Below are positions 3,001 to 41,900 of a DNA stretch of 64,000 nt, in pieces. Below the pieces are notes generated by a model. The model did not search any database. It was not told where the DNA came from and saw nothing but the letters and a program-made list of their open reading frames with translations. Source of the stretch: Nymphaea colorata. Taxonomy: Eukaryota; Streptophyta; Magnoliopsida; Nymphaeales; Nymphaeaceae. The stretch covers positions 24,011,703 through 24,075,702 of the forward strand of contig NC_045146.1 in the NCBI RefSeq assembly GCF_008831285.2, in the 5' to 3' direction. A program made the translations under genes and the position numbers. Positions within the stretch are counted from its first letter, which is position 1. Every line of letters starts with the position of its first letter.

Positions 3001-4151
3001 AACGCAATCAGGTAAAGTTGTAAATCGATCAAACAAACATTTTATGGCCTCTGAGCCGTTGAATGTCTAACAAGTCATCTTACAATTTATGTGCAGCAAG
3101 CTCCTTTGCTAGAGCTAAACTCCTCTCCTGTGCTTTGGAGCACTCCACACTCGACTGCGCCAGCTCCTGTTGCGTAAAAATGAAAATTGTTACATTCAGT
3201 TCCCCATTGTAGCATTTTTTTTGCTTTATAATTATGAAGCAGTCAAGCAATATAGAGGAGTCTCACGTCTGTCTTTCTCTTGAGAAGCTGCTGAAGAGAT
3301 GTTTTCTCCTTTGCAGCTTCCACCTTCAGAGCCTCTTCCCTTGCACCTCTGTCTTTAGCCACGGATAGCTGCGACAAAATCAACGGTTTTCAAATTCTAT
3401 CGCATTCATATCAATGCATCACCACAGGCGCCATGAAGAATGAAATGGATTGAAAAACTCAAATGTAAACTATCCTATGTACCCACATTGTAATATCCCG
3501 TTCGATGCAACTTTGGCGTCGAATAAATCGCAAAAAATATAAGAATACCTCTATCATCAACTCCTTCAAACGCTGCTTCTGCTGCCCAAATGCCTGATTC
3601 ACCTCAGCGAGCTGTCCCCCCAATTTCTTCAATTCCCCTCGCAGTGCCTGAGATGAAGGACCAAAAGATACGAAGACAAGTCACAATTGCCTGAAACTTC
3701 ACGATGATGGCGTCAAAATTTTCGGGTCGAATCGTACAATAACATCATCTGGGGACGCATCAAAACAGCGAGATTTCTCCGGCGCCTGCGTGGGTTCGCC
3801 AAGCGACTGGAAGTAGAGGCGATGGACGCTCTTCTGACAGCACTGCTGCTTGCACAACGGGCAGGTGTTTTTCTTTCCCGATGGGCAGTATTCGAACCAC
3901 TGCTGCAAACTTCGATGAATGCCAACAAACCAAAGGATCAGAAAAACAGGGAAAAACTCGTAGGAAAGAGATATTGAATGAATGGTAACTGAACGAAATG
4001 GATGATGGTCGCCAAACCAAAGCTCGTGGAAGACGTGACCGCATAGGGAGATGGACTGGAGATCTTCGACTACGGGCCTGAGCTCCTCGAAACATATGGC
4101 GCAGATGGTCCTCGAGAACCCGTCGCTCGGTTTCAGATCGTCCGGTTCCAT
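78..4151 (-). CDS. TRAIP-like RING-finger E3 ubiquitin ligase (3' end outside window)
   Basis: Plant homologue of TRAIP/NOPO, a nuclear RING E3 ligase linked in animals to replication stress and DNA repair. Coding exons read on the minus strand: 4151-4018, 3909-3738, 3647-3549, 3368-3267, 3166-3084, 2975-2859, 1307-1205, 1121-425 and 259-78. All junction phases agree, giving about 563 codons before the left edge. The RING lies at residues ~16-65 (CAICFEEL, then CGHVFHELC across the first intron, then CPLCKQQC). Exons 3-7 are rich in charged and leucine residues and probably form a coiled coil. The long exon 8 is low-complexity and probably disordered. Exon 9 carries KWCRQGQ and GADGRGGRIKVLR, which I recognise as the conserved C-terminal plant TRAIP motif. 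It ends at a strong GTGAGT donor, so at least one more exon lies to the left. The family assignment is secure; the function is inferred. Confidence 0.88.
1308..2858 (-). other. large intron of the TRAIP-like gene
   Basis: This 1.55-kb stretch separates exons 6 and 7 of the TRAIP-like gene, and the phase is preserved across it (phase 2 into phase 2). I see no open reading frame of note and no recognisable transposon, only a short GA run near 1790-1803. An extra small exon cannot be excluded by eye. Confidence 0.6.
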
Positions 4152-5374
4152 CGTCTCCCCAGAGAGAGAGAGAAAGGGAGGGAGTATTTTGCAGATGGCG
4201 CGTGTTTCAAACAGAAGAGCAAAGGACGCAACGCGTTCGCGGGAAATTGAGAAAGAGAACAAATCTCGAGTCACATGGATACGTGAAGAGGACGAGTTGT
4301 GGCGCGCGTTGGATTAATGGATCGGCCGCTTGGATACAGTAAATATTTGATCCAACTGCCGCTGCCGTTCGGCCCACATCTTGTAGTCGGCGGAACTTGT
4401 ACTTGTTGCCCAATTTCTTGCTTAGTTGCTTGTCCAAGACCGACCGGTGGCCATGCAACCTCATAGAGGGACAAAGAAACGGAGACAGACGGAAGTAAAG
4501 TTCTCAGGCGACGTTCCCTATGCCTTTTCTCGTTGGAGGATCTCCATTCGTTGCTGGTCCTTTCTGATACTTAACTTGGCAGCGGGAAAGCAACCATTGA
4601 AATGGAACGCAAGGCATCTCAAATTCCTCGGACTTTGAAGCCAACTCCCTCTTCTTTATAGTTTCTACATCTATATATATACCTATATTGAATGATAACT
4701 GATTATTTAAAGTCACTCAACAATTTAACCAAGACTAACCATTCAAAACATATTTGTTGTAAAGTCACTCAACCATTTAACCAAAATTTTTGAAGCAGAG
4801 TAGTTGATCTAATCAAACTTGTTTATGAGCAGTTGAGAAAAAATAAACAAAAAAAAATGTGAATTAATACTACATGATGAGAATATTCATCACCATTTTT
4901 TTCTTGTTTTTCTCTTAACAGTCTATTTAGATCAAAATTGGATTACTGTTGAAAACTAATGTATATATTAAGATTTTCAACAATTTTAATTTGGCTTCCC
5001 TAATTTTTTTTTGGAAAAATAGGAGTTGGCCTCCGGTAAAGTCTCATTTGGAAAGATAGGAGTTGGCCTCCACTAAAAACGAGGTATTTAATGGTCACAA
5101 GACGGTTGAACCCAAAAACAAAAATCATGGCTCTATGCGCCAAGCCACTATAGAGTACATTCCACAAAGACCACCTATGTTAAACTTTACGAGGACTCAC
5201 GATATTAATGACTGAAAATATATGCAACGATTATGAGAATCAACTATTAAAAATAGTTTCTTTATTTACCTGCTTTTCCAAAGAGAGGTGGGCTTCCGTC
5301 CATCGCATTTGAAAATGAATATGTTATTTAGCGCTTCTTGACACCTTGCTTTATGTATTATAACGGAGGCAATG
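4152..5374. promoter_or_regulatory. divergent intergenic region between TRAIP-like and GT47 genes
   Basis: The two flanking genes point away from each other, so this 1.2-kb interval should hold both promoters. A GA-rich run (4158-4175) lies just upstream of the TRAIP start. Two short imperfect direct repeats sit here: about 23 bp near 4708 and 4751 (aaagtcactcaac..atttaacc), and about 30 bp near 5012 and 5050 (ggagttggcctcc). No coding signal seen. Confidence 0.5.
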
Positions 5375-5487: not shown

Positions 5488-7056
5488 ATGGGTCACGTAA
5501 GGATGCTAGATGCTGTAGGTATGGCCGGAGAAGGAGGTCCTTTCACCCCTAGACGTCTGGCTTTCATTCCCATCGTTTTCTTCCTAGTAGTTCCCGGCCT
5601 CTTGCTGTCATCAACTCTTGTACCAGTGCCTTCCTTCCATGTCTGCCTTTCTTCTCTAACTCTCAACATGTACAACTTCAGTGGCAGAAACAATTCCCTG
5701 CAACAATCCGAGCCTCGTGACGATCCAGCCGGAAGAGTGCATGTAGTTGAAGATGTTTCTTATGCTCCACTTGGAACTGAGACGCAGACTGATCAAGGTA
5801 TGAAGAAAAGTATTCAATACGCAATTGGTATGGTACAGGAGCAGATTCATGGATTGAGATCCCCTGCCCGGAACAGGACGTGCCAAGGAGACGCATGTGG
5901 GCACATGTGTGAAGGAAAGGGCATCTTCGTGTATGATTTGCCTGCAAAATTCAACAGGCAGTTGATGAAGGGATGTGTTGATATCCTGCCATGGATGAAT
6001 TTCTGTGAGTATATAACTCACCAAGGCATGGGGCAGCCGGTTCCCAAACTGGGTCGAGGTTGGTACAAGACAAACCAGTTCTCCCTCGAACCAATCTTCC
6101 ATTCAAGGATCATGAAGCATCCATGTCGAGTTCTTGAAGAAGATAAGGCCTCTTTGTTCTACATACCATTCTATGCGGGCCTGAACGTGCTGCAGAAGAA
6201 CTTTCAGAACGCTTCGGTGGAAGAAAAGGACCAACTTGGCCTGCAACTAGTAGAGTGGCTGAAGTCCAAGAGATCATGGATTCAAAATGAAGGAAAAGAT
6301 CATTTCCTGGCATTGGGCACACTCTCTTGGGATTTTAGAAGGACTAGAGGCGTGTGGGGCTCAAATTTCTTAGAGCTCAAAGAGATGCAAAACCCAGTCA
6401 AGCTAATAATAGAGCGGCAACCGTGGCATTCAAATGATGTTGGAATCCCTTACCCCACAAATTTTCATCCTAAAACTGACAAGGAGATCAGCAGGTTTCA
6501 ATCTAAGCTCTCTAGAACCAAGAGGAGAATTCACGTCAGCTTCGCCGGCGCCGGGAGGCCTAACCTTACAGACAATGTTCGTTCCTTTCTGATCGAGGAA
6601 TGCGCCAACAACTCGAGTTTGTGTACATATCTTGACTGTAAATCTGGCAGTTGTATAAACCCCAAAACAGTGATCAAGCTCTTCATGGAATCAGAATTCT
6701 GTCTGCAACCTCCCGGAGACAGTCCCACAAGGAAATCATTCTTTGATTCTCTTGTGTATGGATGCATTCCTGTTATATTTGATCCTTTCACCGCATATTA
6801 TCAGTACCCATGGCACTTGCCAGAGGACCATACTCTGTATTCGGTCTACATAAACCAAGAAGAAGTGAAACAGGGGAAGGTCAAGGTGCTAACTGCCCTT
6901 CAAAGCATATCAGCTAAGCAAAGAAAGGAGATGAGAAGATACATAATCTCAGAGCTCATGCCGCAGATTGTCTATGCAAATCCGAATTCAAATCTGCACA
7001 GGTTCAGGGATGCTTTCATGATTTCTGTTGATAATCTGATAAACAGGGCGGTGTAA
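5488..7056 (+). CDS. GT47 exostosin-family glycosyltransferase (probable xyloglucan galactosyltransferase type)
   Basis: Single-exon, 522-residue type II Golgi membrane protein of glycosyltransferase family 47. In plants these enzymes add sugars such as galactose to xyloglucan and other wall polysaccharides. A short cytosolic N terminus (~18 residues) is followed by one membrane anchor (~residues 20-41, VFFLVVPGLLL). A variable stem contains possible N-glycosylation sites. The exostosin domain runs from ~residue 145 (GIFVYDLPAKFN) to ~490. Near residues 400-432 lies FCLQPPGDSPTRKS followed by GCIPVIFDP, the presumed nucleotide-sugar binding region typical of GT47. The start at 5488 has an excellent context (gccATGGg); a second Met lies 11 codons later. 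Length and single-exon structure match the clade related to MUR3/KATAMARI1. The exact sugar and acceptor cannot be told from sequence. Confidence 0.9.
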   Translation: MGHVRMLDAVGMAGEGGPFTPRRLAFIPIVFFLVVPGLLLSSTLVPVPSFHVCLSSLTLNMYNFSGRNNSLQQSEPRDDPAGRVHVVEDVSYAPLGTETQTDQGMKKSIQYAIGMVQEQIHGLRSPARNRTCQGDACGHMCEGKGIFVYDLPAKFNRQLMKGCVDILPWMNFCEYITHQGMGQPVPKLGRGWYKTNQFSLEPIFHSRIMKHPCRVLEEDKASLFYIPFYAGLNVLQKNFQNASVEEKDQLGLQLVEWLKSKRSWIQNEGKDHFLALGTLSWDFRRTRGVWGSNFLELKEMQNPVKLIIERQPWHSNDVGIPYPTNFHPKTDKEISRFQSKLSRTKRRIHVSFAGAGRPNLTDNVRSFLIEECANNSSLCTYLDCKSGSCINPKTVIKLFMESEFCLQPPGDSPTRKSFFDSLVYGCIPVIFDPFTAYYQYPWHLPEDHTLYSVYINQEEVKQGKVKVLTALQSISAKQRKEMRRYIISELMPQIVYANPNSNLHRFRDAFMISVDNLINRAV

Positions 7057-10513: not shown

Positions 10514-12644
10514 ATGGCGGGCCTTGTGTACCAGAGTTGGAAGGGAAACAATGTAAACTCTCTCTCTCTATTTCTTTTGTCTTTTGCTTGTGCGGCTCTT
10601 GTTTATGTCATTCTGGAAGCATTTTTTGGCTTTTGTTCTCACTTCTCATTTTTTTTTTCCTTTTGAATTGTTTGATGTACTATTTCAAGAGGTGTTTGGA
10701 ACCCTTAAATCCATGGTTTTATACAGGTACAAGTTAGGAAAGTGCATTCTAGCACTGGATGTAGATTTTAGTTTCCTAGCTTATCTTGTTTCTTGTTGTC
10801 TTTGTATTATGTCAAGCTCATAGGAGCAGTTCTCTTTCAGTCAGATTATCTTTTCACTTGTATCTGGTGGAACTAATTTTTTTCTTTCATTTTGCAATGT
10901 TGCAGATATTTGTCTTGGGCGGGAGGTTGATATTTGGGCCTGATGTTAGGTCTCTATTTATCACTATATCACTTATCATTGTCCCTGTGGTGTTCTTTTG
11001 TGCATTTGTTGTAAGAAATCTTCTGCACAAATTTCCTGCCTACAATGCAGGCTATGCAATTCTGGTGGTTACCATAGTCTTCACAATCTATGTTAGTATC
11101 TCTTCCCTTTGTTTACTTAATTCTTCACAATCTATGTTAGTATCTTTTCCCTTTGTTTACTTAATTTGTTCATTGAGAGATTTTATTTTCCATATGAACT
11201 TCTTCCCCCTTCTAGCTCCCATACGCTTGCACTGCTTTATTTTTTTCTTGGATATTGTTTTGTAGTTAGTTGCGACGTTATCAAATAGCTGTTTCTTTTG
11301 GTGATTGTATCTTACTCTTCCTTGTGGTCGTTATGTTGGATTTTTTCTTCTACTTTCATCCAGTGTATGCTGGAAGTCCTTCACAATTTTTAAGTGTTGT
11401 TTCCTTCGTCTAACACACCAATCTCATTCTCCGCCAAAACTGACAAGTTTATCTTGGTGAAACTTAATCAAGGTGTTGGTGCTCCTCCTCTTGACTTCTG
11501 CTCAGGATCCTGGCATTGTCCCTAGAGCTTTGCATCCACCTGAAGAAGAGATATATGAATCAGCAGCTACAAATGATGGTTCTGGACAAACACCAAGGCT
11601 ACGATTTCCTCGTGTTAAAGAAGTTTCATACAATGGAATGACTGTAAAAGTCAAGTATTGCGATACATGCATGCTGTATCGTCCTCCCCGCTGCTCTCAT
11701 TGCTCGATTTGCAACAACTGTGTTGAACGTTTTGATCATCATTGCCCCTGGGTAGGGCAATGCATTGGGAAGGTAATCATTGAAGGTTATATTGAACGTC
11801 TTATCATCTATTATATGTTTTTTTTTTGTTTCTCTTTATGATTTAATTTTGCTTGGATCTGCTGTTTCTATAGGGAAGCAAAGTTCTGCACTTAGTTGAC
11901 AAAAAATGTGTTTGTTATGAGAGCCATGCTGTGTAAAATGTGGTATTAAAGGAATCTCAAATGATTTTCTAGAAGCATATTTTTCTGAAATCTTCCTTTG
12001 GGTCTAAACAAGTTGTTCCTTTCTTTCATTTTGTGGATATGCGTGCCTTTTCTCGTGTTTGCATTCATCTTTACTATCAGTGAGGGGAAATTATGATTCT
12101 TTATTGGAAAGAAAAGTACACTATAGAACCCCATATGTGAAATTTGAAGAAGTCTCACATCTTTTAAATCATCAATGATAAATGAACAATGCCCATATAT
12201 ATCTGTCCTTAGTTGCTACCTTGTATCTTGTTCTAAGTAGTGAAAATCGTAAGTTAGATGCGAGATGGTCAATTCATCAAAAGATTAACCGTGAATAGTT
12301 TGTCTTCCAAAATTAATCAGTAAAAAATATAGAAACACAATAACTAAAGTGTCACAAATGGTAAAAAATGCAAAATATCACTATGAATTATAGTCACAAA
12401 AACTGCTTGTTTTCATTTTCTAATTTTTATTTGTTGCAAATGTACTTATTTTTTGATGTATGTGTTATTAGTTTCTCACTTATTTTATTTTCCTTAATTT
12501 TAGTTTTTGTACTTTCTCAAAAAGAAACATTTTTTCTCCTTTTTTCATGCTCGCCATATTATTCTCGAGAAAAACCTTGCTGTTTAAAACATGAGAAAGT
12601 TTTTTGTGACTATATTATGAATCAAGTAATACATACATACATAC

Positions 12645-17396: not shown

Positions 17397-17745
17397 TCCA
17401 TATCTGAATTTGCAACCACTTTGTGGGTAATTAGCAAGTCTACCAAATCCTGTTACCATGAGTTTCTGTGTTCATCTTAAGTTATATTCTTGTTATATGA
17501 GACATTGGATATGGTGTAGATTTGAAATATATAATTCTGGATTCTGGTAGTGTCTTGTTGAACTATGACTTATTTCCATTTAATAATTTTTTAAAATTAC
17601 TCCTCTTTCTTGAGAGATCATGCTATTTGACATCTGGTTATCAGCCTCTGAATTTTCTAATGGAGATGAACCTCAGTTTCTTTACACTATCATTTGTGAT
17701 AAAAGTTAATTTTATTTTTTCCCATTGCAGTTTTAACCTGCCGTC
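17397..17745 (+). repeat. copy of MurC intron 4 sequence (partner at 29885-30235)
   Basis: About 350 bp here match 29885-30235 in the same orientation. Shared stretches include gcaaccactttgtgggt, tggtagtgtcttgtt, ctaatggagatgaacctc and tttctttacacta. Similarity stops at the acceptor-like cag (17730), where the partner enters MurC exon 5. Two copies within 12.5 kb suggest either a dispersed repeat or a local duplication. Confidence 0.85.
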
Positions 17746-19988: not shown

Positions 19989-21103
19989 GTCACATCATTT
20001 CGATGGACTCAATAACAATACTGAGCTCTCTTTATTTGGAATGAAAGAAGATGTAAACGATAAGGTTGAAAGACAACCACTTTTAAGGAGATTCAAGGAA
20101 AGAATCTCAGCAAAATAAATCAAATTAAATGATAAAGGGAAAGAAAATCTTTCTACAAAATTAGATTAGTTTCCATGCTTATCGTCAAATGGATGCCAGT
20201 GTCGCTTATTTAAACTCTTTCTTTGCATTGTGTAATCAAGGTTCGTGTTGGTCCGTGCAAGATTAATGAAAACAAGTTTTTCATTGCTTGTTTTTATTTG
20301 TTCTACTTCTTTTATATTTTTTCAATATAGTATCAGAGCATGATGCTTGATGAAGAAGAATGAATCACATAAATGGCCTTCAGACGGCCAACAACATTGT
20401 TGCCTTCTTCACCAAAGCGAGGACTCGATGATCAATTTTTACAAAGTTCTGCTGCAAAGGACTTTTAGATCCATCGTCCAGTTTGAGGGAGGATGTAATG
20501 ATAAAGTTGAAAGACAACCATTTCTAAAGAGATTCAAGGAAAAAATCAAAATGAGATATAAATCAGAATTAATGATAAAAGAAAAAGAAAATCTTTCCAC
20601 AAAATCATATTTAGTTTCTTATGTTTATCGTTGCCAATATTATGAGAACTTTACTTATTTAAACTCTTTCTTTGCATTGTGTAATCAAGGCTCATGATAG
20701 CATTTCATGGTGAAAAGCCGTGCATGTTTAATATTTACTTTGCTTCTTTTATATTTTTTCAACATCATTGAAAAAAATATTCTTTAAGCAAATGCAATGA
20801 AAAGATTATTTTCATTAAACATGCATGATTTTTAACCATGGAAGGCCATCATGAGCCTTGATTACACAATGCAAAGAAAGAGCTTAAATATGTGACATTG
20901 ACGATAAACATGGAAACTAAATCTAATTTTATAAAAAGATTTTCTTTCCCTTTACATTTAATTTTAATTTATCTTGCTGTGATTCTTTTATTGAATCTCT
21001 TTAAAAGTGGTTGTCTTTCAACCTTACCGTTAGCAAAAAAAAAAAGTCACATCATTTTGATGAACTCAAGAACATTATTGAGTTCTCTTTATTTGGCATT
21101 AAA
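19989..21103 (+). repeat. 58-bp direct repeat flanking the LTR fossil
   Basis: The stretch 19989-20046 (gtcacatcatttcgatgg...) recurs at 21046-21103 with a few differences. The pair brackets the LTR fossil exactly, with the LTR starting a few bases after the first copy. It is far too long for a normal 5-bp target duplication, so it more likely reflects a duplication or rearrangement after insertion. Confidence 0.75.
20052..21032. mobile_element. Copia-like LTR retrotransposon fossil, small and broken
   Basis: Two similar direct repeats of about 270 bp lie at ~20052-20325 and ~20494-20765. Both begin TGTAA and end in a run such as ttttttca, as LTRs do. Directly after the first is a primer-binding-site-like TATCAGAGC (20331-20339), and directly before the second is a purine-rich tract (tttgagggagga). 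The internal part is only about 170 bp, so no protein-coding domains remain. A third copy in reverse orientation lies at ~20780-21032. The element is a heavily deleted, non-autonomous fossil. Divergence between copies suggests considerable age. Confidence 0.68.
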
Positions 21104-24790: not shown

Positions 24791-24803
24791 AAATTAGTGC
24801 CTT

Positions 24804-25050
24804 GTGAGAGATGGCTAGTTGTGTACATGTGAGTTTTGGTGTGTGCAAGTACATGTGTTTGCATTCTTGTACACGTGCGTATGATTGTGTGCCATTGACA
24901 ATTTCAAATATTATAAATGATTTTCTTTTTCTTTTGTATTAATATGGTTTCATATTTGTTTATCACTTATTTTTTTATACTTTGTAGCTGTTTATTTCTC
25001 TTTTGTGCGCCTTTAATTTTTAGGAAAAAGTACTTGCATTTGTTTTAAGC
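24804..25050 (+). repeat. duplicated piece of MurC intron 3/exon 4 upstream of the gene
   Basis: This segment matches 28486-28967, inside the MurC gene, in the same orientation: the stretch around ttttggtgtgtgcaagtacatg, then tattaatatggtttcatatttg, then taggaaaaagtac...tgtttttaagc-like sequence that is the start of exon 4. About 220 bp of intron and 14 bp of exon are missing from the upstream copy. It ends about 105 bp before the MurC start codon, so it lies where the gene's own promoter or leader must be. Confidence 0.85.
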
Positions 25051-25155: not shown

Positions 25156-28100
25156 ATGGAGATTGTTTGTCATCCTCTGATCTCTCTACCGGGAGTTCGC
25201 CGAGATAGGCTGGAGTTTGGTCGGAGAACGGTCTTCTTGGGGCAGAGACTCCGCTCTAAAGACTTGAAGCATCGGACGCTGCAAATCACCGACGCTGCGT
25301 TGTCGATCACGAAGGAGAAGGATGTCACCCTCGAACGGCAGGGCGATGCTTCCGCTTCAGGCGACGAGAAGACGGAGTGGCTGCATTTCGTCGGTATTGG
25401 CGGCAACGGCCTGTCCGCCATCGCGATGCTTGCTCTGCGGCAGGCAAGAGACTCTCTCTCTCTCTCTCTGCATTGTTGTTTCAACGCGAACTGAGAGGGA
25501 ACTTCTATAGGGACTCTGGTTCTTGGGTTCTTGATGTCTTCATCTCCTGCTTCCGTTTTTGTTTGACGAAATCAATACAAGCGTGGGTCGGTTTCACTTT
25601 TTTTAGGATTTCTAAACGTGTTTCCCTTTTCTGTCATGATCGTTGATTTTGGCGGCTACGGTGATACTTGAAAACTTGTTAAAGGGGAATGTTGGTTGGT
25701 AATTGCAGGGTTTCAAGGTCAGCGGCTCGGATTTGGTATGGAGTAGCAACATGTCTAGATTGAAGAAAGCAGGGGCGAGGTTGCACCTGGGCCACTCATC
25801 GTCAAATTTGCGTGACTATGATGGATTGGTTACACCTTCTGCAGTCATCAAGTCGAGTGCGATTCCTGCTGACAATGAGGAGATTTTGCAGGCAGAGGCA
25901 TCTGGCATGCCTGTGTTAGTGTTACCCACCGTTTCCGCTTTTCCTGCTCGATCATCTTCTCTTGCTGACTTTTTCCGTGATTAAAAGTATTTCCTGATGC
26001 TAATGGTTGGTAGTAAATTCATGTATTGTTGCTATAAGGGCATGCATTTGGAGAATGTTTTTGAATAATTTTTTTGTTGGGGTGAGAACTGAGACGATGC
26101 ACTTCGTGGTGCTGGAGTATGCACATGTGCTCTAGTATCTCTACTCTCTATATCAACGAGGGAAGGATTTGTATAACGAAGAACCTGTAGGCTTGCTAAT
26201 GGTTGGAAATTTTATTTACTATATTTCTTAGCACAGGTTGCTCCCTATGTGACTTATAGTCATTTAACACTTGTCTGCTTCTCCTCAGTTTCAGCAGTAT
26301 CTCGTTTTATTAAGTTTGACATTGCGTCTTGGACCTCTTGGTCACTTCGTGGTGCTGGAGTATGCACATGTGCTCTAGTATCTCTATTCTCGATATCAAC
26401 GAGGGAAGGATTTGTTTAACGAAGAACCTGTAGGCTTGCTAATGGTTGGAAATTTTATTTACTATATTTCTTAGCACAGGTTGCTCCCTATGTGACTTAT
26501 AATCATTTAACACTTGTCTGCTTCTCCTCAGTTTCAGCATTATCTCGTTTTATTAAGTTTGACATTGCGTCTTGGACCTCTTGGTCTTGTTTTACAAGAA
26601 AATGTGTAATGGACACCAAACAAGTTCAGATGATTCAAGTACCGCACTACCTCATAAAGTTATCGCATCTGAAAAAATCTTAATTTTGTACTTTTGTTAT
26701 CAATCACTACGTGCACATAGCAGCAGTAACTTCATGGCCTTTCCATGTGCACGATGAAACCAGGCAACTTGGCAACCAAAGGAAGCATTCAGAGACTAAG
26801 AAAATAAACTACAAGAGACATTTAATGTTTCTATGATAATTTACCAATCAAATTTCTGTTGCCGAGAAGCCACATGTTTCAACTGTCATGTACTACATTA
26901 GCATTCGAATTTATTAGTGGATGGATATTTATTGGTTCTATTGCATTACGCTTCACTTAGCAACCAAAAATCTTGATTCTGATCAATGCCTTTTGATAAA
27001 TGGACTTCTTATCTGCTTGCTTCAATATTTTCTTATTAGCCTGATGGTTAGGGGCCTACTTTTGAACTGCTTCATTAGAGTATTATTGATATGCAGACGT
27101 GCTGACGAGATTGAATCTATGATTCTTCAATACTTGTTTGCTCTTTTTGATGCTTCATTTGAATCAGCTATTTTGTCTATGTTTTTGTTGAAGCATAACT
27201 CTGCAGTATGATGCTATGTGTATGCAAATGGTTATGACACTTCTTTCATGTAGCACGTAAAGCTTTTGTACATTTCATTCACTGGTTATATTTTCTGTTT
27301 GCATGTTTCAGCCACAGCAGGGGTGCTTGGTTGGGGAAGATAACAAACCAACACAACCTTATTGCTGTCAGTGGAACTCATGGTAATCATATACTGCTGC
27401 AGTGGTGTCCCCACAGCTATAGGGACTGTTTGGACCTTTCTTTTTCTTAATGTAACTGCAAGTTGTTTACTGTGCCAAAGTACTATTGTACTTTCTTGTC
27501 TTTGTCTATGTGCCTGTGGTGCCTGCATGCACATTTGTGTCTACATGTGTGCACCTCTGTTTCTCCCCACCCATGCATGTTTACATGCTGTGTGAGAGAG
27601 AGAGAGAGAGAGTTAGTTAGTTGGAAGGTTGATAGCGGATACCCATTGCATATTACTATGACATGATTTAGCTTCTTACACGTAAAGGGTGCAGCCAAAA
27701 AGATGAATCATGCTGAAACATGGGATATAAATGGATGGGAATATGGGATATATCCAATCACTGATCTGATTTTGGATCCATTTAGTTGGATTAAAAGAAC
27801 TCTAGATCAATCTACTAAGCGGATTTGGATTTAATATGCAATTGCATGACTAGATCCGAATATCATTGATATCCAATTGGGTTCAAATAAAGATCCGACC
27901 TGGTTACATAAAAATATCGGATCCTGTCACATAGGTATGGGTTTGGGTATGGGAACGAGGAAGCAGGTATGGGTACTGCTTCATTTCATAATTTCTACAT
28001 ATAATCTCATAAAACATAAATAAAGTAACAAAAATGTGGTTAAAATGTAAGAAAAAATGGTTTGGATCAGTTCTGACCCGAAACTTATCCAAACGTACCA

Positions 28101-31100
28101 CTGTCGTACCGCCGTACTGGTACTGGTACGTGGGCATAACCCACATACCACTGTGACATAGGTCAGGTCTTATGCTAGTTAGATCCAAATTTGTTTTTTT
28201 GAAGAGTGTGAATCCAAATCTGATTACATAGAAGCTGATTAAGACTTTAAGTTGCCCTCAGCTAAGGCTGGATCAAACCTGAATCTAAACCGTCTACATC
28301 CCTAAAAACGTGTACTACTTAGTAATGTACTGCATATTTTATTTTTATTTTTTATCTTGCAGTGTTTTTATTAACTTTGTTAATCTTCTCTGTATCACAA
28401 TGAACCCCACCTATTGGGACTCAGGAGCCTATGAAGAGTGTCATTGCTAGTGACTTTGTTCCTTAATTAGGAAAATTTTGAAAGTTGTGAGGGATGGATA
28501 GTTCTATACATGTGTGTTTTGGTGTGTGCAAGTACATGTTTTTGCATTCTTGTGCATGTGCGTATGAGTGTGCCATTGATATTTTCAAATATTATAAATG
28601 ATTTTTTTTCTTTTGTATTAATATGGTTTCATATTTGTTTATCACTTATTTTTTTATACTCATTAGCTTTTTATTTCTCTTTTGTTTCTCTTTTGTGTCC
28701 TTTAAAGACATTACAAAAAGTTCTTTTCCCCATGCTCTCCTATATGCTTTTACCAGGAGTTGTATACTATGGCACCTACCGTGCACTAGGCAGCCCACTG
28801 CATTTAGGGCTAACATTTGCATGTAGGAAACATTTCAATTGAATTGAATGCTTTTTATTGTTGTTATTGCTGGATAATATGCATCTTCAGTTCTTATGCT
28901 TTATTATGTTATCTTTTAATTTTTAGGAAAAAGTACAACAACTGCTATGCTTGCGTTTGTTTTAAGCGAGATGGGTGAAAATCCTACTGCCCTAGTTGGT
29001 GCACATGTACCACAGGTATGCTTGGCTAACTTACATGGGTTTAAGACCGTAAAATGAAACACTGTTATTGGTGTACTTAATGATGATTATGACCTTTTCT
29101 TTTGCTTATTATTTGAGTTATATGTTAGTTTCTAGGCATCACTTTGGTAGTCTATATATCTTTTTTGCAAAACAAGTGCATATCTATCTTTTAATACATT
29201 AGCCAAAATCATGGTATCCTTGAGAGCATTAAGTACCCGAAGGGTTGACTTGGCTGAGTTTTATGGAGGCTAGTCACTGCAATTTGGAGCTGTGAATGCC
29301 TGTGTTATGAGGGTTCTGGCGAGTCAAAATTAGAAAGGCAATTGGCCTTGCAAGAATGGAAGCAGATGGGCTGTTGTTTTGTGCTTGAGATGTAATCATG
29401 TAAACAATTTTTTCTTGAAGGACTTATTGTTTATATTCCTGCCTTCATATGAATGTTAAGTGTATTTATTGGGGAATTAGTTCATATTGGTGATAGCTCA
29501 TGATATAACCAACTTTAATGTGCTAATAGCAAACACATTCATACAACAAATTGGCCTTCTGAGATAAATCATATGATGCCTGAAGAATAAGATCACATCA
29601 TGTGAAGGATGTTTGTGAATGCAAAATTCACGATGGTCAAAGGCAGTTCCTGGATGAGGAACAAATACAATTAGACATGAGTTTTTTGTGGTCAACTCAG
29701 TTAACTGTCTGTCATATGGAATTTGTAGAAGAGAAATTTTGTGAACTTCAGGAAAGTTCTAATTAATGTCCTCACTTTGTCAAGTGAACTTTTATACTGT
29801 TTTATAGGGTTCTTTCTCTTTGACAAGGGACTTGATTATGTGAAACATTTTGCTGAGTTAGTCATTTTGGGTCCTCAAAAACCCAAATTCGAGTATCTGC
29901 AACCACTTTGTGGGTCATCAGCAAGTCTGGCAGATCCTGTTACAATGATTTTTTTTGTTCACCTTAAGTTAATTTCTTGTTATACAAGGCATAATAGGCA
30001 TTGGATACAGTATAGATTTTAAATATATAATTCTGGATTGTGTATTCTGGTAGTGTCTTGTTAAACTATGACTTATTTCCATTTAATTTTTTTTTTTAAA
30101 TTACTCCTCTTTCTTGACAGATCATGCTACTTGCAATCTGGTTATGAGCTGCTGAATGTACTAATGGAGATGAACCTCGGTTTCTTTACACTATTATTTG
30201 TGATAAAAGTTCATGTTATTTTTTTCCATTTCAGTTTTCAGGAGGTAACATCCTTTCTGGATGTGGCTGCCATTTTGTGTTGGAGGTACGCATTTTGTGT
30301 TTTGAATTTGATTTTTTGGCTTTGTATTTTTACATTGACACTCATTTCCTTTCTATTCAACTATAGGTTTGCATAGTGAATAGTAAAAGCTAAACGAATC
30401 AGGATTTATGTTTAGTGTTTAAATGATATGCTATTACTGCCTTTTTATTTCTTTGGTTGCTATTACTTAGTAATGTAGCAAAGTATAAATGTAGTATTTG
30501 GTTTGTGTATGACAGGGTGATGAATATGATGGTGCTTTCCTTGAGCTTTCGCCATCTGTTGCTGTGGTGACAAATATTGAGTGGGAACATGTTGATCTTT
30601 TTGAAGATGAGGTTGGCTGAAGCATCTGTTTATAATGCTTGAAACTGCTTTTTTTTTGAAGGTTGTCTTTTCATTTATTAGATGGCAGTATTAGAAGTTT
30701 TCAAGAGGTTTCTGTTAAGGATGAAGCCGGGAGGACAAGTTATAGCATGTGGAGATAGGTAGTTGCTGTTCTTAGTTTCTAATAATATCTTATAGCTTCA
30801 TCCGATGTTTTCTGTCGGTTAATGCCTTTAATCTCCTAAATCTCCATGGTAAAGTATGTTGAAAGTTGAAACTGATTATTTGTTATTCCATATGTAGGCT
30901 ATTGTGGTGTTGAGAGAAACAGGGAAACTATTGCATATATTTTTTGGATAGGAACCTATTCATACTAATGTGTTTCTTCACAATGGTGATGATTCAAAAG
31001 CATTAAAGGAGGAAGATCTTTTTTTATAGAATATATACTCAAACAATTATGATAAGAGATCATTTGTTGCTGGAGATGATCATGGATGTGTTGAGTGTTA

Positions 31101-34100
31101 CGGGCAAAATTAAAACAGGTTCCCTTGGAGGCTATTTGGGAGCAATAGTAGGATGTTATGGTTCCATGCATTTGCCCCAAAAGGTGGGGCAGGTTCATGG
31201 CACACATTTTAAAGCGTCCAATGGATGTAACCAATTTTGGTTTAGATGCATCGGACAGTAATATAATGTTACTGCTCCCAAACAGCCCCTTAGGGATCAC
31301 TTGGAGGACTTGCCAAGAATTTGTTGTTAATGTGACGGCGCCTGCAGTTTTGCTACAAAGGAGATACTACCTCACCAAGGGATACTGTACTCCACATAAT
31401 TGTCATTCTTTGACATGATGATAGATGGCATTATTCTTCCTTAATTGCCTGAGCATTCATATGTCACAATGGTTAGAGGAAGGATAGAAGCGATGAGAAA
31501 ACAAGCGGTCCATGCATCATACTGAGCATATTCAGATGCAGTTCTACTAGAAAGAATATTCTGTGTTGTTCAAACGGCAAATCCACCAATTAATTGATGG
31601 ATATCAACATATTTAGACCTGGGAAACTGAAATGGAATGTCTAGGCCTTTATGTAGATGTAGAAATCAACCTTCCATAAATCAAGCAGTTACCCGAGCAA
31701 AAGGAAAAGTCATCCTTTCCACATGTTTTTGGCTTACGTGGTTTTCAATGAGTGGAATTGTATACATGGCTTTTCACATCTAACATTTTGAAAAGCTGCA
31801 AGATTTCCAATCAATACAATGGTACAAATTGCACTGTGCGAATTAGTAGACTGCATAAGCAATATAGGTGGGCAAAAAGTTTATGATTTGAACTGAAAAA
31901 TCCTGCAGATTACCATATAGATCAATTGAGTAAACCATAGTTGAATGTGACTCAGTAACTTAATCATCATACTTTTAGTTTGAGGATTGTGCTATCTATC
32001 TCTAACCTTCAAGCATTTTGCTTCAGTTTTCTTGGTAAATGTGTAGAAGATCAGAAATGTTCTCATTTTTCAGTGCAGGAGTTTGTGCTTTATTAGGACG
32101 TAGAGGGCAAAGTTCAGGTATAGGGCTTCAAGTATCAAACAGCCACCTGAACGTGCAGCGTTTTTATTCTACCAATAGAATAGCAACTTATGGAATCTCC
32201 AGTACAAATGAATGGTATGCGTCTTCTGTTCATCCAAACAAGGAAGGGGGAATTGATTATCTACTGGCAAGTCCCCATGTCTTCTCTTCATGTTTTAAAG
32301 CTTGCATTTTCGTTTGTATTAGTCATCGTCATAATCAGTGTAAAAATCTCTATGTTTTTGTGGACTCATTGCTTTTCTTTTCCCAAATGGTTTTCCTTGG
32401 TTTGTTTCTTTATTGTTCACTTGCTATTGTATGCAAAGCTTTTGTTATTTGTTTGGTAGTTCTTCCAATGCTGAATCAATCAGTCAGTCATGCATTTCTT
32501 GTTGTCTGGTTTTAATATCTTGCGATATGTAAAAGTTTTTGGTAAATTTATATGTGAAGCATATATAATTTGTAACATGAATAAAACTTTTTGCATAAAT
32601 TTGTATAATAATATTTGAAAGGTTCATATTCATTTCAAAGTGTACTAAGTCCATGTCAAGATCGTCATGGTCATTACTTCATATTATGCATATTATTTAT
32701 TTTTTGTCTGCCTTTTTACGATTTTAATGTCATACTAGTCATTTCATGACATTGCATTTTCATGACTATCTTATGACATGATGAACACCAAGTATGTAAT
32801 GGAGGATCCTATATCAAAGATTTAAGTAATCTTCAGGGGCTTATATACCTGTGTGCTATACTACCAATTGTCCTGATATGATAAGTATCTCTTTTTGGAC
32901 ACAAATCAGAGCAAGCTAGAAGATAGCTTAAAATCTGTTAGACAAGGGCACATATGTGAATTTTAAATGGGGCCGTCACAATTAGTATTAAAGCTACATT
33001 CGATGCTCTGACTTATGGTTCCCATATGTGGATGCATGTGCCTTAAAGGGAGTGGAGTGTAACACTCCAAACAAAGTTGTAAAAGCTATATCGTATCATG
33101 TATTGGTTGGGCCGACCTATATGCATATCGTAAATTTATTTCTAATTCATTAAAAATAAAAAATCCGGAAAATAGAGAAAAGTTCTGAAAAAAATCAGGA
33201 AAAATGTTTTCTATATGAAATGATTCATCATAGGTACCACACACATAAATAAACATTCATAATTTGTCATGCACACACAATAATAATAATAACGATATGA
33301 TAAGCATGATAAAGTTTAAAGACTTAAAAGACTATTACAGTCAAAGTTTCACTGTTTTACATCATATCATCAAAGATTTAAAACATAGAATCTATCTATT
33401 CATCTTCTTCATCTTTGTTAAAATCTTGATCCTCATTTGCTTCATTTTCTTCTCCCTTCAATGCAGTGATTTCTCCTTTCAATCGTCCATTTTTGGTTAT
33501 TTCTTTCCAAAATGACAAAATCTCCTCCTCCACAGCTCTTACAAATGCTGGAAATGAAAGGGGGGAGGAGTTTTAAACATAAAACGTTTGAAAAGTGTCC
33601 AAACATCCTTTTTTAAGAAAAAACCTTGTATTGTACGATACGCACCATATCCCTGTATCGTACGATATGGGTACAATACACAAACAATTTGTGTATTGGT
33701 TGCATATCGTGCCCGTATCATATCATTTTTCTCATACAATATGATACATCCATATTGTACGATGCAGATAACATTGATACCAAGTATGTGAAGAGGGACT
33801 TGAAAGTAGTCTTACGTCTAAAATTTTAAATTTGAAGTTTATATACATGTGTGACAGACGACCAATAGTCCTGATTTTTAGCCTTTTTGGGTGGGAACCT
33901 AAGCCAGCTACATGGCAGGTGAGAATCCTCAAAGGCAGGGCATACATATCAATTTTGATCCAGCCATTACACCTAAAGCAGAAAGCAAAGTGATGGTTAA
34001 AGTCTAAAAATTTAAATGTTCATTTAGACATGTATTTTGTTGGTTTGCAGTCAAACTATGAGTGTAAACTTTTCAAACAGGAAAAATGTGTGTGTCATCT

Positions 34101-36720
34101 AGCAAGTAAGCAACTTCTCTTCTCCTTCTCCTTGGTGAAAGTTTTTGTATTCCTTTTCAAGTAAGTTGGTTGTATGCAGATTATTTCCTTACTCTCTTTC
34201 CTCTGGGACACATGCAAAATCTAACCTTGTGTCACCTGTAGCATTATATGGGTCAACCAGTCACAAGCATCAGCCTTCAATTACCTGGAGTTCACAATGT
34301 TCTAAATTCTTTGGCTGTAAGTACTGAACTCTGTAACGTTTGCTTGTTATAAGCTGTACTGTAGATTCCAAAATTAATATGAAACTTATCTGAACCCTTT
34401 CCATTTACAATGATTTTTTTGTTTCTTACAAGAGAACTATTGTGGCCTGTCATCACCTGCATGTCATATTCTAAATTGCTTTTTTTATTTGTAAGTTCCG
34501 TATAAGATATCATGTCGCATTATACATGCATATCTTACAAGCAAAATGAATCCCATCATTTAGTCCTTTCATGATCATATTGGGAAATGATATAAGTTGT
34601 ATGCATGCCATATTGCCATACTGGTTGTATTCGATATTCATGATTCTTTGGTTGTAATCATGTTCATGTTGTGTTCAATTTTTGCCATGGCAGGACATTG
34701 GATGGTATTATCATATGATATATGTACACATGTATATATTTGTGCATGTCTTCATGGGTTAAAATAAGTTCATGTCATGCAGACAAAGCTCTCTGTGCGC
34801 AAAGTAGATGTCTTTTTTCTGGTTCATTTTCTTGTGGAATAAGCTCTAGAGGTATGATGTACACCATTTGTAAGATCCATTTGTCATGCCATCACATTGT
34901 GTAAGTATGCATTGATGTTTCAACCACGGACCAAAAAAAAGAGTAAAAATCAGTTTTTTGCATCAAAATCACTAGTTATATCGTCAGGGTAAGATTGGGT
35001 AAATAAATAGCAGACGGATGACTTCCCACAACAATAATATGATTTTAATAGCACAGACTTTACCGCACCTCTACATGAATTGGAAGCACATAAAGCAAAA
35101 CAAAAAGGGAAAAAAACTTTGGCTGGCGTATTTTACATGTCACTGGCTTCCTTGGATGGTGCTCCTGTTGGTTTTGTCAAGTGCTGTCACCTGTCAACAG
35201 TAAGCCAGTAATTATGTTGCTTATGTAATATTTCAATAATTAGAGAATCATGGCTGTGGATCGTTGGGCAAACATGTTCTGATACGTCTCTTCTGGCACT
35301 CGGCTTTAACCTTTTGGTTATGGCTTTAACAAGATCATGGCCCTTAGTTACTCACGGTTCATCTCTTTCTTTTTACTTTAGGAACAGAAGTCAATCGTTA
35401 ATATTTGAATTTGGTAGCTTTCTGTATAATTGAATAGTGTTTCTCCTTGTAGTCAATATTTTTTTCTGAGCCATGTTTTTAAGTCTTTTGGGTGTCAAAG
35501 TTGTATAATCTATCCGCTTCTATTTTCCTGTATCTTTTTTATATTTGAATGTTATTGGAGCATTTTGCTGCTTTTATTAGGTTTTCTGTTTATATCAACT
35601 GGCTAATTCATATTTTAATAATTTAATGACAGGTTATTGCCGCAGTAACCTCGCTAATGGATAATAAAATGTTAGTCTATGACACCATTGGCAAAATTAA
35701 GACCCATTTGAAGAATTTTGTGGGTGTTTCTAGGCGTTTTGAATTGATTGGGAAGTTTAACAACTGCTGCATATATGATGACTATGCACATCATCCAACA
35801 GAAGTTTGTGCCGTGCTGCAAACAGCTCGACTGATGTTCCCGACTCAGGCTCTATGGGTTGTTTTTCAGCCTCATACGTTCAGGTTCTTTCTCATAGTCA
35901 CTGAAATCAAGTAATTCATTTGATGTGATTGCATCAGATGACATGTGATGTGAAGTGAAATTTTTAGTTTTCTTTCTTGAAACCAAAGAAAAAGCATACT
36001 GGTTAACGTGTAGCCTTAAAAGAATCCTTTAATTCTTTGCAGCCGTCTGGCAGCATTGTTAAAGAGCTTTGTTGCTTGCTTCAATGGTGCGGATTACGTG
36101 GTAGTTACCGAGGTATTCATGATTGCTTTAGTAAGAAAATTTTCCTAGTAATGGACATTTATTTGACTGTTGGACCGGTATAGGTTTATCCTGCTAGAGA
36201 AAAGAATCTCTGGGATGTTCATGGGCAAGACCTAGCGTCTTCTGTTACAGGCCAGGCTTCTGAATATATCCCCAGGCTGGTATTTATCTAATTTTCTTTT
36301 GTTAAGGTTTTTCAGAAATTTAGTCTGTCCCTGGACACTTTTCATGGAATTTTTGTTATGCTCCCAAAGATATTTCAACTAATGTAACGTGGCATTTATA
36401 TGAAATCATTTTATTTGGAATCTTGGATAAAACTTGTATTCCACTTGGACTTAGTTTGCATCATTATCGGTTGGCAGGAAGATGTAATCAATAAGCTGCT
36501 GTTCAAGATTTTTTGTAACCGCAATCAAGGAGTTGTTATCTTTACACTTGGTGCCGGTACGACAAAAACTCTATTAACCAGTTTTATGTATGTGAAAGTT
36601 GAGCTCCCTTTTGACATTGGAAAATAATATTTACAGGCATCTTTCTTTTTACTATAACCAGGCAGTATAACAACTTTGGGGCCGAAATTGCTTGCTGAAC
36701 TAAACAAGCAGACAGAGTAG
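25156..36720 (+). CDS. MURC: UDP-N-acetylmuramate--L-alanine ligase, plastid type (MurC)
   Basis: MurC joins L-alanine to UDP-MurNAc using ATP, the first step of the peptidoglycan stem peptide. Fourteen exons: 25156-25443, 25709-25914, 27312-27382, 28927-29015, 30235-30285, 30516-30611, 30682-30758, 32074-32266, 34242-34316, 35633-35883, 36043-36112, 36184-36279, 36478-36556 and 36662-36720. They give 1701 nt, 566 residues and no internal stop. Residues 1-~70 are basic and Ser/Thr-bearing, like a transit peptide. Then come FVGIGGNGLSAIA (Rossmann loop), GFKVSGSDL, the P-loop GTHGKSTTT (186-194, split by an intron), GDEYDGAFLELSP with TNIEWEHVD, ATYG, LPGVHNVLNSLA, DDYAHHPTE (~431-439), FQPHTFSRL, VYPARE and the terminal TLGAGSITTLGPKL. 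All three Mur-ligase domains are therefore present. Introns 1 and 8 appear to use GC donors. Family certainty is high; plastid location is inferred. Confidence 0.93.
26100..26585 (+). repeat. 243-bp tandem duplication in MurC intron 2
   Basis: Two head-to-tail copies, 26100-26342 and 26343-26585, begin cacttcgtggtgctgg. They differ at only about half a dozen positions, so the event is recent. It is wholly intronic and does not disturb splice sites. Confidence 0.93.
27690..28300. repeat. repeat-derived segment in MurC intron 3 (inverted relative at ~43330-43440)
   Basis: The block at ~28030-28165, with gtactggtactggtacgtggg and ccactgtgaca, matches the reverse complement of ~43333-43440 in RPN3 intron 1. 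Both share gtcacagtggtac, the ggtacgtggg motif and actgatccaaacca. The left side (27720-27930) has repeated atatgggatat and ggatccg words. A gtcacatagg/ccactgtgacata pair near 27927 and 28150 hints at inverted ends. It is probably a nonautonomous DNA transposon family; class not certain. Confidence 0.5.
31127..31290. mobile_element. MITE in MurC intron 7
   Basis: A ~160-bp element is bounded by inverted ends: ggctatttgggagcaatag at the left and ctgctcccaaacagcccc at the right, which is the reverse complement with few mismatches. Inverted similarity continues inward (ggatgttat versus ataatgtta). The ends resemble the GGGGCTGTTTGG-type termini of plant hAT- or PIF/Harbinger-derived MITEs. No coding capacity. 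Target duplication is not clear. Confidence 0.65.
33060..33800. repeat. repeat with nested TACGATACG palindromes in MurC intron 8
   Basis: Around 33620-33770 the words tgtacgatacg, tatcgtacgatat, catatcgtgcccgtatcatatc and attgtacgatgc alternate in both orientations. A related patch (atatcgtatcatgtattgg) lies at ~33088-33110. This suggests a worn repeat with its two related ends ~0.6 kb apart. No coding frame of note. Confidence 0.45.
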
Positions 36721-38942: not shown

Positions 38943-41900
38943 CTAAAACTCATCATCGTCCTCCTCTGCGATATGCTTTGCAAGCTCCTGTTCCTGTTGC
39001 TGTCTCTCTCTTCGCTTCTCTGCGCTCTCCTTCTCCTTCTTGTGGGCATTTGGAGGGAACCTCAGAGCCCTTACAGCCTCATTATGCATGTTAAGACAAA
39101 AGGCTATTCTAGTGTGGAAAGCCAACTGAGGCTCATTAGTAGAGTAAACATCCCCTGTTTCCTTCGACAACATGTAACCATTTCCATGATCAATTGTGGC
39201 GTCTATAGCACCATCTCTTATAGCTTTTGCTACTATGCATTCAGCATCTGCCACTGGGGTTGCTGAATCCAATCTCAGTTTAGCAGCAACATCAGCAAGT
39301 GAAATGCGGGAATAGGATATACTGATGTTTCTAAGCCCTGTCCTGATCACATTGTGACGCAGTCTTACGATCAAGTTGTTGGTCCTGTCAGTACTAAATT
39401 GCTCGACATACTTCTCAGCAACGTTCCTGAAAAGTTCAAGATCTCCAATGCGGACCGCCTGTACAAGTAATAAATCAATATACGCTAATTGAATTGAATA
39501 AAAAAGAGTTTCACATATGGAAAAGGTAAAACTTACATTGGTCAGCTCAAAGTAAGGCCTCAAGGCCTTCTTCATGCCACTTTGCATGAACACTGTACGC
39601 TCAGGTATCTCACCAAGCAACAGACGGACAATAACAGCCCATTTGCTGCATTGGATTCGAAAACCTCGAGCACCCACTGGGGCCTTTCGAGCAGCCTGAA
39701 GAAGACTCTCCTTAGCATCAGTGTACTCCAGCTGGATGGTACGAATCCTTCCCAAGTAATATAAATACCTACAGAACTGGTACAGAACTGAACAAGTCAC
39801 CAAGAAGCAATAAAAAGTGTGGCAATAAAGAAGACCACCACTAACTAACCTGCTGATTGGAGTGAGCCTCGAAACGTGGAGTTTTGGACCGAAGTTTCTC
39901 AGCCTGGTCATACAGATTGTAGTGAAGATAGTTGCGGAGGAGGAGATTCAAAAGTGTCTCCTGATAGGATGATACTTGTTAATATATGCAATGATTAGTT
40001 ATGCCTTCATAGCAAACAAACTGATTGGTGCAAACCTGCCCAAGCTCATCCCGTCGAAGAGTAGCCATGCGATGCAGCGCAAGGAGATTACTGTCGAATG
40101 CAAGAAAAGAATCTGAGGTAATACCCTGAGGTGTAGTATGTGCATATAGAGTGGTGAATATTGCAACTTCAATGAAAAACTTCAAAGGCTGTAATGCTTA
40201 CCCTCTGATTTCAGAAAGGCTACCAGTTAATTCATAGCTGTATGAATAGTAGAAATATAATCTGGCTGCCAGCACATCAACAGTCCTGCGGTTCAACTGC
40301 TTCAATCTAACAATCGCAGCTGAAGCACAAGATTTTGCCTGCAGATGAGCCAAACAGAAGTTAAAAACCAATAAACAAACCAATAGCATAGCCCGGCAAA
40401 ACATGAAATCACTGAAACGTCAAAAGTCAGTTACCTCTTCATACTGCTTATGATCGATCAGAAAAATTAGAACAAGCAAATATGAGTAGATCTCAAGCTC
40501 CGGAAATGAATATTTAATAGGAGCTTGAGCTGCAGAAGACGCAGTGTCAATTTCCATATCATGGATATCATCCTGTAGAGAGAACCAAGTGAAAGGTCAA
40601 ACGCCAAAAGCCACATACAGGCATTAAAGTGAGACAAATCAACTGCTCTAAATTTTTTCCACACGTCAAAACTGCATTAACCCAAGAATTAACATGGCAA
40701 CGAGACTGCAACTCATCCAGCATAAAAAAAGATGGAAAGACTATCCACTGCAACTAGTGCTAGGAACAATGTAAAAGTGAGGTTGATAGGAAGTTCTAGA
40801 GACATTATAGGTACAGCATACATTTTCTGTTATTCATATGAAAAACATAAAATTTTTAAATGTTTCTCTTTCTTCCCTGTTGAAAAGGAAGTATACATGG
40901 TGAAGCTGCAGCTCTTTTATACAGCAATATTTTGGATCATTATCCTGTTGTTCCTTTTCATGAAGTTATTAGTTTGTTTCATGTCACATATGAGCAGAGC
41001 AAAAAAGAGCTCTCAATGCCCCTTTGTCAAGCATTACATTTCCTGATTGTTTTCTAGCTTCATCGCACTGTATAACATGACCTAATGGAGTAAAGACAGT
41101 TGAATTTCTACCAGGATTAGCTATCACATTTACAGAAGTAATTCCCCACATCTTTTGTCTCCCTTTCCTTTATCATTTGTTCCCATACTGCAGGTCACCC
41201 CAATCAAGAATAAATGCATGATAAAGTAGGAAGGGTGGAAACAAGTGAACCTTAATCTCAAGTACATACACAATAAAAACTTCATTGACAGATAGGAATA
41301 AAAGATCGCATTCAGTGGAACACCTGCCTCACAGATGAGCAGATACTTAAAGATCCAAAAAGTACAGAAGAACAGACATTATTTCTGCAGCTAGATGAGT
41401 ATCATGTTCATGAATGGAGAAAGTCGAGGGCACACGGAGATAACAAAGGCGTGAGAAAGGGACATTAGCGTGTAAACAAGACAAAGAATGAAAATCATCA
41501 TAACTTTTTTAAATGCTATTGCTGATTTGAGAATCCAAACTGGAGGCAAACAATCTCAAGCCATTGTATTTTTTATGAGAAAAGAAGCAAGCATCATACA
41601 AAATTAGAAAGCAAAGAAAAATTACAGTAATCTAGCATCACAGAAAGTAGAAAGAAAAGCTCAATTACAAAAGCAAGAATAAAATGGGATTCTTTTAAGG
41701 CATCTTTATGCGAAGCTGAGAACTCACCAAGATCAATTCTCTTGCTAACGAGAATACGTTCATAATAACAAATCTAGCTCAGTATTGCAAAATTGAATGT
41801 ATCTAAAAGTAGATCAAGAATTGAGTTCTTTAATGGCTTTGAAATCAAACAGAAATTTCGTCATCAAGCATCGTAGAAGTGCAACTGTCACATGCTGCAA

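Follow-up and report, generated by a model that had tools for sequence, protein, structure and literature searches.

Genes of the peptidoglycan pathway have been described from moss, from spruce and from a number of angiosperms. According to the Fig. 1 legend of the Picea paper (PMC12681378), MurA and MurB make UDP-MurNAc and MurC then adds L-alanine. By that account MurC carries out the first amino-acid ligation, and not the committed step as an earlier note on this DNA had called it. For moss grown on D-cycloserine, the detection of UDP-MurNAc-Ala in extracts is described (PMC9434261), and for spruce (Picea abies) the isolation of a full set of Mur cDNAs is reported (PMC12681378). The LysM protein PPASP is reported to occur along with the pathway (PMC4815162).

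Angiosperms with nine of the ten peptidoglycan genes have also been published (PMC9434261, PMC12681378, PMC9954125), and one of these accounts sums up the holders of near-complete Mur sets as a diverse number of eudicots (PMC9434261). MacLeod et al. 2023 ascribe to Asparagus officinalis and Citrus sinensis a full toolkit that includes PBP-family orthologues (PMC10784329); the Picea paper, where it treats the same two species, counts nine genes and states that a bifunctional PBP is known from no angiosperm (PMC12681378). Nicotiana benthamiana is named as a further species of this kind from the authors' unpublished analysis (PMC9954125), and the same paper, by Tran et al. 2023, describes peptidoglycan signals around angiosperm chloroplasts. 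A literature search on peptidoglycan, plastid and MurE in Amborella found no entries.

The locus presented here lies in a 64-kb stretch of Nymphaea colorata DNA, referred to below as the window, which was analysed as a whole. We consider it likely that this nuclear locus, whose 14 exons keep an intact frame, encodes the plant MurC that serves the peptidoglycan pathway of streptophytes. What was found in the window is a nuclear, intron-bearing MurC gene among eukaryotic neighbours, which include genes for a GT47 exostosin, a DHHC palmitoyltransferase and the proteasome subunit Rpn3. Table 1 presents the coordinates of these features.

Gene model and family identity

Rebuilt from the sequence, the gene comprises 14 exons with a coding sequence of 1701 nt, equal to 566 codons and a stop. 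Exon phases agree at all junctions and there are no internal stops or frameshifts, which bears out the exon and codon counts given in the earlier note. The four Mur-ligase motifs listed in that note, GTHGKSTTT, GDEYDGAF, DDYAHHPTE and FQPHTFSR, were all located as well. The first of these is divided between exons 3 and 4 and the last between exons 10 and 11; the other two each lie inside a single exon.

Table 1. Features of the window, with positions counted from its first base.
Feature	Position	Strand	Remarks
ORF	3702-4274		Weak RING-finger matches
Exostosin GT47 gene	5488-7056		Pfam above gathering score
DHHC palmitoyltransferase exon	11473-11841		Pfam above gathering score
Fragment copied from MurC (end of intron 3, start of exon 4)	24802-25050	+	Source 28485-28685 and about 28914-28973; directly 5' of exon 1
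MurC gene	25156-36720	+	14 exons
MurC exon 1	25156-25443	+	N-terminal extension (about aa 1-73), then first part of N-terminal domain (HFVGIGG); GC donor at end in model
MurC exon 2	25709-25914	+	GFKVSGSD...
Tandem duplication, 243 bp	26100-26586	+	Inside MurC intron 2; 98% identical
MurC exon 3	27312-27382	+	3' end within P-loop
MurC exon 4	28927-29015	+	Remaining P-loop (GKSTTT)
MurC exon 5	30235-30285	+	
MurC exon 6	30516-30611	+	GDEYDGAF, TNIEWEHVD
MurC exon 7	30682-30758	+	
MurC exon 8	32074-32266	+	22-residue insertion; GC donor in model, open GT donor alternative 12 bases further
MurC exon 9	34242-34316	+	LPGVHNVLNSLA
MurC exon 10	35633-35883	+	RRFEL, DDYAHHPTE, FQPHTF
MurC exon 11	36043-36112	+	
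MurC exon 12	36184-36279	+	
MurC exon 13	36478-36556	+	
MurC exon 14	36662-36720	+	Stop codon included
Proteasome subunit Rpn3, C-terminal part	38943-39911	-	Pfam above gathering score; adjoins MurC downstream, opposite strand

Eleven of the 13 introns begin with GT and end with AG, and the model places GC donors at intron 1 (CAG/GCAAGA) and intron 8 (CTG/GCAAGT). GC donors occur at about one in a hundred plant introns, and two among 13 are unusual against that frequency. Their usual context is AG/GCAAGT, which both donors fit. Alternatives for these two introns were sought among every GT donor and AG acceptor no more than 60 bases from the modelled ends. For intron 1 (25443/25709), seven GT-AG pairs keep the frame open, each at a cost of 15 to 37 residues. 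For intron 8 (32266/34242) there are 15, and one of them, with its donor after 32278 and the acceptor unchanged, adds only four residues to give a protein of 570; its donor, CAT/GTCTTC, appears to fit the donor consensus poorly. The GC donors are the best model and no necessity. Since open GT-AG alternatives exist, the 566-residue protein is likewise the best model and other lengths are possible.

These donors bear on the reading that the gene was recently silenced or is dying, with an intact coding sequence but with splicing or promoter function gone; it would then be a stage in the loss that the pathway has undergone repeatedly among angiosperms. Two GC donors, one of them at an intron where all seven GT-AG alternatives found shorten the protein, are what such a reading would call upon. 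Against it stand the fit of both donors to the usual GC-donor context, the small price of the alternative at intron 8, and an alignment to the bacterial profile that runs without an indel at either junction. No indel falls at any of the 13 exon junctions in that alignment, the nearest, one residue long, lying two positions beyond junction 4. Further evidence on this reading comes from the sequence upstream of the gene and is taken up below.

The family identity of the protein is clear from several kinds of match. It scores 393.2 bits against the NCBIfam equivalog model for murC (TIGR01082; cut-off 335.1), covering positions 2-448 of 449 with an E value of 1.8e-117, and in a sequence comparison with the PDB it is matched best by chains that bear the name UDP-N-acetylmuramate--L-alanine ligase. 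The Pfam domains PF01225, PF08245 and PF02875 follow one another as N-terminal, middle and C-terminal parts, all above their gathering scores. When 57 MurC sequences from bacteria were made into a profile, it aligned without a break to residues 70-564, with a score of 443 bits. All 14 exons contribute residues to match states of this profile, with a mean posterior of 0.81 to 1.00 per exon, and the 22-residue insertion in exon 8 (aa 306-327) stands out against it. Because of the TIGR01082 match, the three domains and the presence of all 14 exons on the profile, an origin by chance is excluded. Mur-ligase domains are common to MurC, to Mpl, to MurD and to general Mur-ligase-domain proteins, and the protein might on that ground be one of the others. 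Among the 20 NCBIfam models listed for it, however, murC alone passes its cut-off; mpl (TIGR01081) reaches 157.3 bits where 388.7 are needed, and the murD, murE and murF models each fall below theirs. In the tree described below, three mpl sequences form a clade of their own (100/100) that leaves out the Nymphaea protein. That the protein is another Mur ligase is therefore extremely improbable.

Conservation against bacterial MurC and the N-terminal extension

The bacterial references were drawn from MurC-like ORFs at 65 loci, of which 57 were kept. Four duplicates (L001, L003, L005, L006), three mpl sequences (L016, L017, L078) and one broken or partial ORF (L073) were dropped; L014, L015 and L056, which fell below the cut-off, and lower-scoring matches were left out of the set. 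Measured against these 57 references, an unbalanced set in which 28 members are Myxococcota and the plasmid-borne members were not scored against TIGR01082, the Nymphaea protein keeps 62 of the 66 columns that are at least 90% invariant, 40 of 42 at 95% and 29 of 30 at 98%. The four departures at the 90% level, given as reference letter, position and Nymphaea letter, are M86L, T191S, G214A and F355Y. All are conservative substitutions, and T191S sits in the P-loop, where GKS replaces GKT. In a leave-one-out comparison, the Nymphaea protein retains a larger share of the conserved columns than 12 of the 57 references do, and is somewhat less conserved than the median bacterial reference.

As a separate observation on the Myxococcota, the best murC matches in 57 genomes of this phylum fall mostly into two score groups, at about 465-560 and about 340-395 bits. 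This suggests that the phylum has two MurC types or that some of its members have diverged strongly.

Twelve residues of the Nymphaea protein are identical in all 57 references: G186, H188, G189, K190, E235, E238, H260, R416, R417, H435, H436 and R467. Structural work on bacterial MurC gives a catalytic or binding role to the P-loop lysine, the two glutamates of ExDE, the histidine of TNIEWEH, the arginines of RRF, the paired histidines of DDYAHHP and the arginine of FQPHTFSR; every one of them is present. The glycine of the EGDE motif is shared with two of the 57 references, and 51 have alanine at that position. Judged from the sequence, this degree of conservation would imply long purifying selection. 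The earlier note had argued for selection on a MurC with preserved catalytic motifs, and the presence of those motifs together with the conserved columns is in keeping with it.

Conservation at this level also bears on a possible exaptation of MurC, in which the protein is made but its role in a peptidoglycan wall is gone, as has been proposed for angiosperm MurE (PAP11). The precedent is described for the plastid RNA polymerase complex (PMC12681378, PMC9434261), and the statement in the Picea paper on the bifunctional PBP of angiosperms would suit such a change of role. A purely structural role, however, would not need conserved positions kept at the level of a bacterial enzyme, and the angiosperms with early genes are described as keeping nine genes together (PMC12681378, PMC9954125). 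We consider exaptation very unlikely.

Some 70 residues precede the part of the protein that aligns with the bacterial profile. This N-terminal extension could be a targeting sequence. Its first 40 residues contain ten Lys and Arg, four Asp and Glu, three Ser and Thr and no Ala, and plastid transit peptides do not typically have so few Ser and Thr and no Ala. Of the view in the earlier note that the extension is compatible with plastid import, the existence of the extension stands, and plastid import, which a sequence so poor in Ser, Thr and Ala does not show, is a prediction. By analogy with the published moss pathway, and not from its sequence, the Nymphaea protein probably acts in plastids.

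Upstream fragment and genomic surroundings

A copied part of the MurC gene lies some 105 bases upstream of the gene's start codon. Over 201 aligned bases, the segment 24802-25006 agrees with 28485-28685, inside intron 3, at 187 and shows two small indels; 25012-25033 is an exact match to the boundary of intron 3 and exon 4. Fourteen bases are then missing from the exon-4 part before the likeness continues to about 25050. Since exon 4 encodes the P-loop, the gene is the source of the fragment, and since its exon-4 part lacks 14 bases, the copy is dead. Near 28690-28910, intron 3 has about 220 bases that the copy lacks, unless the source gained them by a later insertion. Two histories fit these findings. 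In one, a tandem duplication was followed by loss of exons 1 to 3 from the first copy, and the gene now stands behind intron-derived sequence and not behind its old promoter. In the other, a copied piece was inserted during break repair and the old promoter lies further upstream. The original promoter may thus have been displaced. A blastn search for a further MurC copy upstream returned only the intron 3/exon 4 fragment.

The fragment lends some weight to the silenced or dying gene introduced above, as does the record of MurA, which is described as lost many times among angiosperms and as encoded in 178 of 857 species of a transcriptome set (PMC11588093). It also provides a clock. On an equal division of the differences between copy and source, the gene copy has collected about 0.037 substitutions per neutral site since the copying. 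The expectation for a neutral coding sequence would then be about 2.0 stops, with a probability of 0.13 that none arises, and about 8.5 indels, the indel rate being taken from two events in low-complexity sequence; none of either is seen. The joint probability of this outcome is about 3e-5 under the equal split, 0.005 if the gene copy took a quarter of the change and 0.12 if it took a tenth. The clock favours selection on MurC after the rearrangement and is not proof of it. With the evidence from the splice sites, it leads us to regard a silenced or dying gene as unlikely.

Other repeats were seen in and near the gene. The tandem duplication in intron 2 is probably recent, since its units are 98% identical. 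The segments 29895-30238 (intron 4) and 17408-17734 (about 12 kb upstream) share a repeat some 340 bp long with 84% identity, probably a dispersed element. At 20056-21103 lies a cluster of direct and inverted repeats, with arms that are 88% complementary over 112 nt and stand 752 nt apart; this is probably an inverted-repeat mobile element.

When ten ORFs of the window were compared with Pfam, three passed the gathering score, one gave weak RING-finger matches and six had no match. The spacing and the kinds of the genes point to an angiosperm more than to a conifer, and the neighbours together with MurC itself point to a plant host. Bacterial contamination of the MurC locus is excluded because of the introns and the eukaryotic neighbour genes. 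A very recent transfer from bacteria, which the bacterial origin of the MurC family could bring to mind, fares no better, as the 14-exon structure and the eukaryotic genes on either side count against both. Among the 65 bacterial sequences fetched, BLAST identity reaches 36.3% at most. Plasmid records give the same picture, with 35.6% identity for the first listed of 74 and all 74 below 60%. We give contamination or very recent transfer next to no chance.

A scan of genome contigs for a bacterial sister group returned nine loci, the best at 36% identity. In a tree of 61 rows, whose bootstrap is not fully settled, the Nymphaea MurC sits on a long branch (1.78) and joins no supported group; its highest identity to a bacterial sequence in the tree columns is 40%. 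Published work places plant MurC as sister to a 'plant type' Frankia MurC2 and describes the plant Mur enzymes as not cyanobacterial (PMC7231273). The present tree contained neither cyanobacteria nor Frankia, and the non-cyanobacterial origin reported there is neither supported nor contradicted by it.

Searches for further elements in the window returned little. To look for pieces of other Mur genes, 366 bacterial ORFs from the fetched loci, each 200 aa or longer, were compared with the window, and none matched it outside the MurC exons at E 1e-4, in a search that matched only exons 1, 2, 6, 10 and 11 (5 of 14) and that genes with small exons would escape. Scans of the 64-kb window for tRNA genes and with Rfam gave no matches each. 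Upstream of MurC, two sigma-70-type promoters were predicted where 1.2 are expected, a result that is not meaningful for a plant gene.

Predicted function and comparison with known systems

As a working plant MurC, the protein would most likely bind ATP at its P-loop and activate UDP-MurNAc. It would then most likely join L-alanine to the activated precursor, yielding UDP-MurNAc-L-Ala as the substrate for MurD. This activity, the location in plastids and the expression of the gene are predictions, as are the presence of its partner genes in Nymphaea and any peptidoglycan product. Speaking against a working MurC are the GC donors, the upstream fragment and the untypical N-terminal composition. 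Retained Mur genes may also be inactive in leaves, since a 2024 study describes MurA in potato as retained without leaf expression (PMC11588093). An unlikely variant is an active MurC under selection in an angiosperm with no cross-linking PBP, where UDP-MurNAc peptides or uncross-linked lipid II serve a use other than a wall, for example as a plastid division signal or an envelope component.

An intact early-pathway gene makes Nymphaea a candidate plant in which to study the role of peptidoglycan or its precursors in plastids for which no cross-linking enzyme is known. By the published accounts, Citrus sinensis and Asparagus officinalis (PMC12681378) and Nicotiana benthamiana (PMC9954125) already offer that question, and the Nymphaea locus is an added case. 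The upstream fragment and the GC donors illustrate why an intact frame alone does not equal a working gene. Near-complete Mur sets of angiosperms having been published, the Nymphaea MurC is a well-preserved example and no new phenomenon.

Compared with bacterial MurC as modelled by TIGR01082, the Nymphaea protein shares a full-length match over the cut-off, the three domains, the P-loop and the Mur-ligase motifs. It differs in its 14 exons, its N-terminal extension of about 70 residues, the insertion in exon 8 and a BLAST identity that reaches at most 36.3% over the 65 fetched sequences. The 'plant type' MurC2 of Frankia is the reported sister of plant MurC (PMC7231273). The MurC proteins of the plastid pathway in Physcomitrium patens and Picea abies stand at the pathway step that is predicted for the Nymphaea protein; those two plants also possess a PBP gene, and their pathways are backed by transcripts or metabolites. 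Close in kind are also the MurC proteins of Asparagus officinalis and Citrus sinensis, which, likened here by their published descriptions (PMC10784329, PMC12681378), represent this enzyme in other angiosperm hosts, a group in which only some members have kept MurC.
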